Source of the DNA: a virus
IMG/VR virus record: IMGVR_UViG_3300025469_000012
Span: 1 to 38,272 of that record
Length of the DNA stretch: 38,272 nucleotides
Reading direction: 5' to 3' (one strand)
A program made the position numbers and the translations under genes. Positions 914 to 1,153 of the stretch are shown piece by piece; the first letter of the stretch is position 1; each line of letters begins with the position of its first letter. The notes beneath the pieces are model-generated. The model did no database searches. It saw only the letters and a program-made list of their open reading frames with translations, and had not been told where the DNA came from.

Positions 914-1092
914 TTCCCAGCAGTACGGGAAAGGATGTGCGGCGGCGTGGAGGGACACGCTAGCCAGCGTAGGGGCGGAACGGGACGCTGGAATCCTGCG
1001 TGCGGGGATAATCGGCACGCGGTATCTCTCAGCTGAGAGGGTAAACCTGATAGCACCGACCCAAGCCGGTATCAAGCCCGGCCCGCACATCG
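914..1092 (+). ncRNA. Candidate structured RNA with multibranched fold
   Basis: No convincing gene lies between 902 and 1191. Instead there are many perfect Watson-Crick stems in order. P0: 914-918 with 927-931. P1, the closing stem, 9 bp: 934-942 with 1083-1091. P2: 945-949 with 956-960. P3: 964-970 with 985-991. P4: 998-1003 with 1015-1020, extended by 995-996 with 1021-1022. P5: 1026-1030 with 1035-1039. P6: 1055-1058 with 1067-1070, extended by 1049-1051 with 1071-1073. P1 encloses P2-P6 as one junction. GGGT at 1039-1042 could also pair with ACCC in the P6 loop (1059-1062). Plus strand is inferred because the early operon follows. It could be a leader, ribozyme or riboswitch-like element; I do not recognise the family. 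Confidence 0.6.
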
Positions 1093-1124
1093 TAAGAAGT
1101 TGCTAAGAAGACTTTCGTAATCGA

Positions 1125-1153
1125 GCGCCTGGGCATTACGAGTACCCAAGCGC
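1125..1153 (+). promoter_or_regulatory. Hairpin in the leader before the early operon
   Basis: GCGC (1125-1128) pairs with GCGC (1150-1153) and GGG (1131-1133) with CCC (1145-1147), separated by a two-by-two internal loop. It lies between the structured RNA and the ribosome site AAGGAGG of the gene at 1192. There is no U-run, so it is not a classical terminator. A leader-RNA stabilising or regulatory stem is the likely reading. Confidence 0.45.

Follow-up and report, generated by a model that had tools for sequence, protein, structure and literature searches.

What kind of RNA, if any, is encoded at positions 914–1153 of this viral DNA, and what might it do for the phage? The window, by which we mean the whole stretch of 38,272 nucleotides analysed (IMG/VR record IMGVR_UViG_3300025469_000012), comes from a phage that encodes a terminase, a portal protein, an integrase and a YqaJ exonuclease. 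The sequence-only reading had described a dense multibranched structure in this region, placed it in the leader of an early operon and suggested, among other options, a new ligand-sensing RNA.

Megablast of window positions 1–25000 against phage records gave zero matches. A blastn search with a word size of 11 against phage records returned only a match of 24–27 bases, located where the last hairpin (P3) meets the 3′ strand of the closing helix (P1′). This match occurs in four phages with unrelated hosts, each time in unannotated DNA. The four phages also share a 5′ hairpin (GCGGCGGCGTGGATGGACACGC), while the sequence between the two ends is unrelated. Scanning with the 3′ word identified at least 119 viral contigs, along with 42 contigs of bacterial genomes, the bacterial carriers being Acetobacteraceae, sphingomonads, other Alphaproteobacteria, Burkholderiales, Chromobacterium and single Acidobacteria and Ignavibacteria MAGs. 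A scan with the 5′ word yielded at least 120 viral matches. The pattern CGGCGCTGAWGGAAGCGC was rejected as a probe, many of its matches resembling coding sequence. The collection amounts to 216 distinct members, drawn from viral contigs, from four named phages (Caulobacter DMCA, Komagataeibacter phiKX1 and phiKX2, and Pseudanabaena Pan3) and from the 42 bacterial genome contigs.

The members share a core composed, in order, of P1, a CG or CA linker, P2, a hypervariable domain, a single A, P3 and P1′. P2 and P3 have 5 bp each; P1 varies from 6 bp to at least 12 bp. The P2 loop has the consensus GAWGGA, and its GG and A are invariant among members that were collected using that loop as a search word. 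The P3 loop is mostly UAUCAAGC, with the consensus UNUCRARY; among 177 loops, position 1 is U in 164, position 3 is U in 174, position 4 is C in 174, position 5 is a purine in 175 and position 6 is A in 176. This motif is absent from some members (L292, L344 and L357). In the window, the conserved RNA unit that represents this widespread phage family spans 934–1091 on the plus strand and is composed of the following parts:

934–942 (+): 5′ strand of P1 (GATGTGCGG), the acceptor-like closing helix; 9 of 9 pairs with 1083–1091 are Watson–Crick, and P1 covaries family-wide
943–944 (+): conserved linker CG between P1 and P2; among 205 members, CG in 190 and CA in 14
945–960 (+): P2 hairpin GCGTG-GAGGGA-CACGC, stem 945–949/956–960; family loop consensus GA(A/T)GGA
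961–1063 (+): hypervariable domain, 103 nt in the window copy, from direct reading and folding
964–970/985–991, 998–1003/1015–1020 and 1027–1030/1035–1038 (+): hairpins within the variable domain, from direct reading and folding
1039–1042 (+): 5′ strand GGGT of the putative pseudoknot helix Pb, complementary to 1059–1062
1059–1062 (+): 3′ strand ACCC of the putative helix Pb, directly preceding the A and P3 and matching the Pb′ position of short members
1064 (+): conserved unpaired A ahead of P3, in 202 of 205 members
1065–1082 (+): T-arm-like P3 hairpin GCCGG-TATCAAGC-CCGGC, stem 1065–1069/1078–1082, abutting P1′; loop consensus UNUCRARY
1083–1091 (+): 3′ strand of P1 (CCGCACATC), pairing with 934–942

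The 9-bp stem that had been proposed to close the structure is a perfect helix and coincides exactly with the family P1, and the hairpins it was said to enclose, together with the possible GGGT/ACCC pairing, are all present in the window sequence. Of the region described as structured, 914–1153, the part at 934–1091 stands, whereas the flanks (the hairpin at 914–931 and the segment at about 1092–1153) are not conserved and lie outside the RNA unit.

To evaluate the pairing, we used two sets of members chosen by fixed words, without use of pairing: set A was picked by the 3′ word and tested for P1 and P2, and set B was picked by the 5′ word and tested for P1 and P3. In set A, the P2 pairs form in 98–100% of members, as compared to 68–97% after shuffling, and P1 pairs 2–4 form in 90–99%, as compared to 42–55%. 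In set B, P1 pairs 2–7 form in 92–99%, and the P3 pairs in 100%, against 73–98% for the shuffled controls. The outermost P1 pair is lower in this anchored test (74–77%), and many different base pairs are found per position. A 70-sequence alignment, whose members were partly chosen by pairing, so that the anchored test is the cleaner of the two, has 98.3% of its cells paired (78% when shuffled) and double changes in 17 of 18 pairs; its covariation score is 0.511, as compared to 0.112 for shuffled alignments, and none of 500 shuffles reached the observed value. The covarying pairs among homologues that the earlier proposal called for are thus present in P1, P2 and P3 of unrelated phages, and we regard an independent, covarying RNA family as virtually certain.

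The folding energy of the window region is better than that of shuffled sequence, but only moderately so: the z-score is −2.37 for 914–1153, a value equalled by 1 of 200 shuffles, and −2.84 for 930–1095, equalled by 2 of 200. We accept the structure as real on account of the homologues, in which all three helices covary although the phages are unrelated. The view that the region holds no convincing gene was also borne out. The TTG-initiated open reading frame at 909–1106 is unsupported, the middle of the element is hypervariable, and the member lengths are evenly spread modulo 3 (76, 71 and 69).

A covariance model, R1, was made from the 70-sequence alignment, and it matches the window copy at 935–1090 with 75.6 bits. 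According to R1, a phage record carries one copy as a rule, and some records have two close together or in tandem. When 385 alphaproteobacterial genomes were searched with R1, four matches were obtained, two of them in known carriers. Given that so few of these genomes carry the RNA, it is an accessory of phages, and presumably of prophages, rather than a host housekeeping gene. In one subgroup (L015, L023, L038, L047, L084 and relatives), P1 reaches about 17 bp, with similar hairpins on either side, which suggests a larger RNA in these members.

The placement of the window copy, 101 nt ahead of an ATG at 1192, raises the question of whether the RNA acts in cis, as a leader element or riboswitch of the downstream operon. 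The strong ribosome site noted there is real for the window, and a ribosome site with a start codon closely follows a number of other members too, but the family as a whole does not share this placement. The orientation relative to the flanking genes is random (50, 49, 45 and 36 members in the four combinations), which largely refutes the leader reading. No neighbour gene, downstream or otherwise, is common to the family; the recurring neighbours look like ordinary phage genes. A shared expression platform or terminator was not found either. Furthermore, a TANNNT motif peaks 19 nt ahead of the inner end of P1, in 23 of 201 members against a background of about 2 per position, and is often an extended −10 element. 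Since this element stands at a fixed distance from P1, transcription in those members probably starts at P1, from a promoter of their own. The proposal of an early-operon leader or ligand sensor is therefore not supported for the family, given the random orientation, the lack of a shared neighbour and the many members with a conserved start at P1. A cis-acting leader is, in our estimate, very improbable as the general explanation; the next gene lies on the same strand in about half of the members, so that a cis role is possible in some. We think it likely that the RNA acts in trans. A ribozyme or a nuclease-blocking transcript, the other suggestions made for this region, is conceivable.

Terminase genes, their families judged from sequence, often lie within 4 kb downstream on the same strand, and the Pan3 copy is near its terS, which would suit a DNA-packaging RNA, or an element of the packaging site, similar in role to the phi29 pRNA. 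Several unrelated terminase families are involved, though, and other members, such as the window and DMCA copies, are located away from the terminase, so that we consider a packaging function extremely improbable.

The core resembles tRNA in the order of its elements. P3, an arm of 5 bp, sits directly on P1′, as the T-arm sits on the acceptor stem; its loop, UNUCRARY, is T-loop-like, but at 8 nt it is one nucleotide longer than the T-loop consensus UUCRANY (7 nt). P2 begins two nucleotides after the 5′ strand of P1, like a D-arm; its loop, likewise D-arm-like, has only six nucleotides and contains GG. In place of the anticodon arm, the family core has the hypervariable folded domain. On the other hand, tRNA models (ARAGORN and RF00005) applied to the window and 18 loci did not match the RNA itself, and detected only tRNAs nested within it (L002 and L031) and neighbouring tRNAs. 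A 7-bp acceptor stem with a 3′ CCA is not the rule either: P1 varies in length as described above, and 16 of 216 members show a CCA close to their end, with no consensus. No statistical signal of coupling between the P2 and P3 loops was detectable, the GG and UC being nearly invariant and the GG being part of the search pattern. Judged from the layout of the core, a tRNA-like fold seems on balance probable, and an elbow contact between the GG of the P2 loop and the UC of the P3 loop is plausible.

The genomic setting adds to this resemblance, as the family gene often lies beside tRNA genes: 27 of 216 members have a tRNA gene within 250 nt, as compared to 6.8 expected, and 25 of these 27 members are on the same strand as the tRNA gene. 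In one phage array (L192:701–1591), two family members are dispersed among five tRNA genes. L192, L129 and L208 lie between two tRNA genes, and in these loci, as in L353, the tRNAs are only a few nucleotides away, as would be expected of a processing signal or spacer of tRNA arrays, at which cleavage by RNase P or other tRNases releases the adjoining tRNAs or mRNAs. Such a spacer would not require a variable domain that is folded and reaches 208 nt, and the 27 members with a nearby tRNA are a small part of the 216; this explanation is quite improbable. Directly downstream of one member on a Sphingomonas contig (L166:7007–7094, minus strand) lies a DUF3800-VII RNA (Rfam RF02967). A link to DUF3800 genes, considered because of this locus, was rejected, such a gene being found in only 1 of 17 phages.

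The variable domain ranges from 31 to 208 nt, with a median of 83, and at about 72% identity 189 of 205 domains are still distinct. Short domains, of at most 60 nt, occur in 47 members, and here the a-b-a′-b′ order of an H-type pseudoknot scores 21.5 on average, as compared to 11.9 for shuffled sequence. Nested and sequential arrangements show no excess in the same members. The enrichment was measured in these 47; an independent set yielded just 2 short members. In the pseudoknot, b′ directly precedes the conserved A, and the GGGT and ACCC of the window take the places of b and b′; the pseudoknot suspected there thus fits the pattern of the short members. In longer members, above about 110 nt, the pseudoknot is hardly separable from shuffled sequence, and the subfamilies of L038, L109 and L172 look nested rather than pseudoknotted. 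Alignments of near relatives (L003/L139/L159, L141/L151, L172/L256 and L101/L126) reveal compensatory changes in this domain, which point to selection on a folded structure, though not on one universal fold. Some domains contain a nested tRNA-like sequence, at L031:3788–3858 (minus strand, 47.2 bits), at L002:1929–1994 (plus strand, 34.9 bits) and, judged by its T-arm, in L158. Those of L031 and L002 exceed the Rfam tRNA threshold, and the anticodon loops of L031 and L158 are short or otherwise abnormal.

A very variable domain within a conserved frame, the members' own promoters and the compensatory changes just described would also suit an independent regulatory small RNA, in which the tRNA-like frame is a stability scaffold and the variable domain base-pairs with, or binds protein on, phage-specific targets. 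We consider this rather unlikely, in that the variable domain is mostly folded and not single-stranded, and the association with tRNA genes would be left unexplained.

No Rfam 15 family scored above its gathering threshold on the element itself, and a scan at permissive thresholds was also without a match, in agreement with the suggestion of a new structured RNA. The letters CUGAGA...ACCUGAU in the variable domain of the window recall a TPP riboswitch; this candidate was rejected, as there is no Rfam hit and the letters belong to an unconserved part. Bacterial Y RNAs (YrlA) are small RNAs carrying a tRNA-mimicking module, and tmRNA combines tRNA-like ends, where a T-arm sits on the closing stem, with pseudoknots in between. 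The first were rejected because there was no Rfam match and no TROVE/Ro60 gene in the 17 phage records tested; the second because ARAGORN found no tmRNA in the window and 20 loci, Rfam gave no match, and the family RNA is much shorter. The small stable RNAs of the T4 tRNA cluster, species 1 RNA (rnaC) and species 2 RNA (rnaD), are annotated without a function. T4 rnaC (L279:1409–1547, minus strand) ends in a canonical T-arm (CCGGGTTCGAATCCCGG) with a 7-nt T-loop, but unlike the family, neither rnaC nor rnaD has a P2 with GAWGGA. Homology was rejected, as R1 has no match to L279 at E ≤ 1; rnaC is the nearest analogue in setting and is not homologous by the model. GOLLD and ROOL are large ornate bacterial RNAs, partly phage-carried, of unknown role, whose structures have been determined (PMC12286853). 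They are far larger than the family RNA, and no member scanned had an Rfam match. Given that no known family contains it, the RNA represents a new class, which by its possible way of working may be closest to tRNA-like RNAs. The literature searched, which included few subscription journals, contained no description of it, and the family is apparently undescribed, although it is carried by hundreds of unrelated bacterial viruses.

As the best explanation of the whole, we lean towards a small phage RNA of about 90–230 nt that stands alone, acts in trans, mimics tRNA in its architecture and carries a replaceable domain. In this mechanism, docking of the P2-loop GG onto the P3-loop UC would create an elbow like that of tRNA. 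The elbow-bearing molecule would be stable and could be recognised by factors that handle tRNA, either enzymes of maturation or nucleases with which defence systems attack tRNA; a specific, fast-evolving activity would reside in the exchangeable domain. The mimicry might then serve the phage, for instance by luring away or inhibiting a host factor that binds tRNA. Such a decoy or counter-defence role is speculative and only a modest possibility, yet it is the most likely single use, and we put it first because phage tRNAs rescue phages from tRNA-cutting defences (PMC11555353). We offer tentatively the broader idea that widespread phage RNAs copy the tRNA elbow, replace the anticodon arm with a fast-evolving domain and counter tRNA-binding or tRNA-cutting systems of the host, as decoys or inhibitors. 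If this were true, a non-decoding, tRNA-mimicking phage RNA would be a natural further countermeasure beside the phage tRNAs (PMC11555353).

The combination of a conserved tRNA-like frame and an exchangeable domain is an unusual design, and it is found here in a covarying RNA family, seemingly unannotated so far, of hundreds of phages or prophages whose hosts include Alphaproteobacteria, Betaproteobacteria, cyanobacteria and probably Acidobacteria and Ignavibacteria. The family provides a tractable system for an old question, the role of stable RNAs other than tRNA in phage tRNA clusters.

Apart from the RNA unit, a segment of about 100 nt (GCGCGTGCGGGCATTTGAATTTGCCCGG...GCGCAGAGAGAGG) is near-perfectly duplicated at 1–106 and 583–688 of the window, ahead of two different small genes, which encode a pentapeptide-repeat protein and an HTH-like protein.
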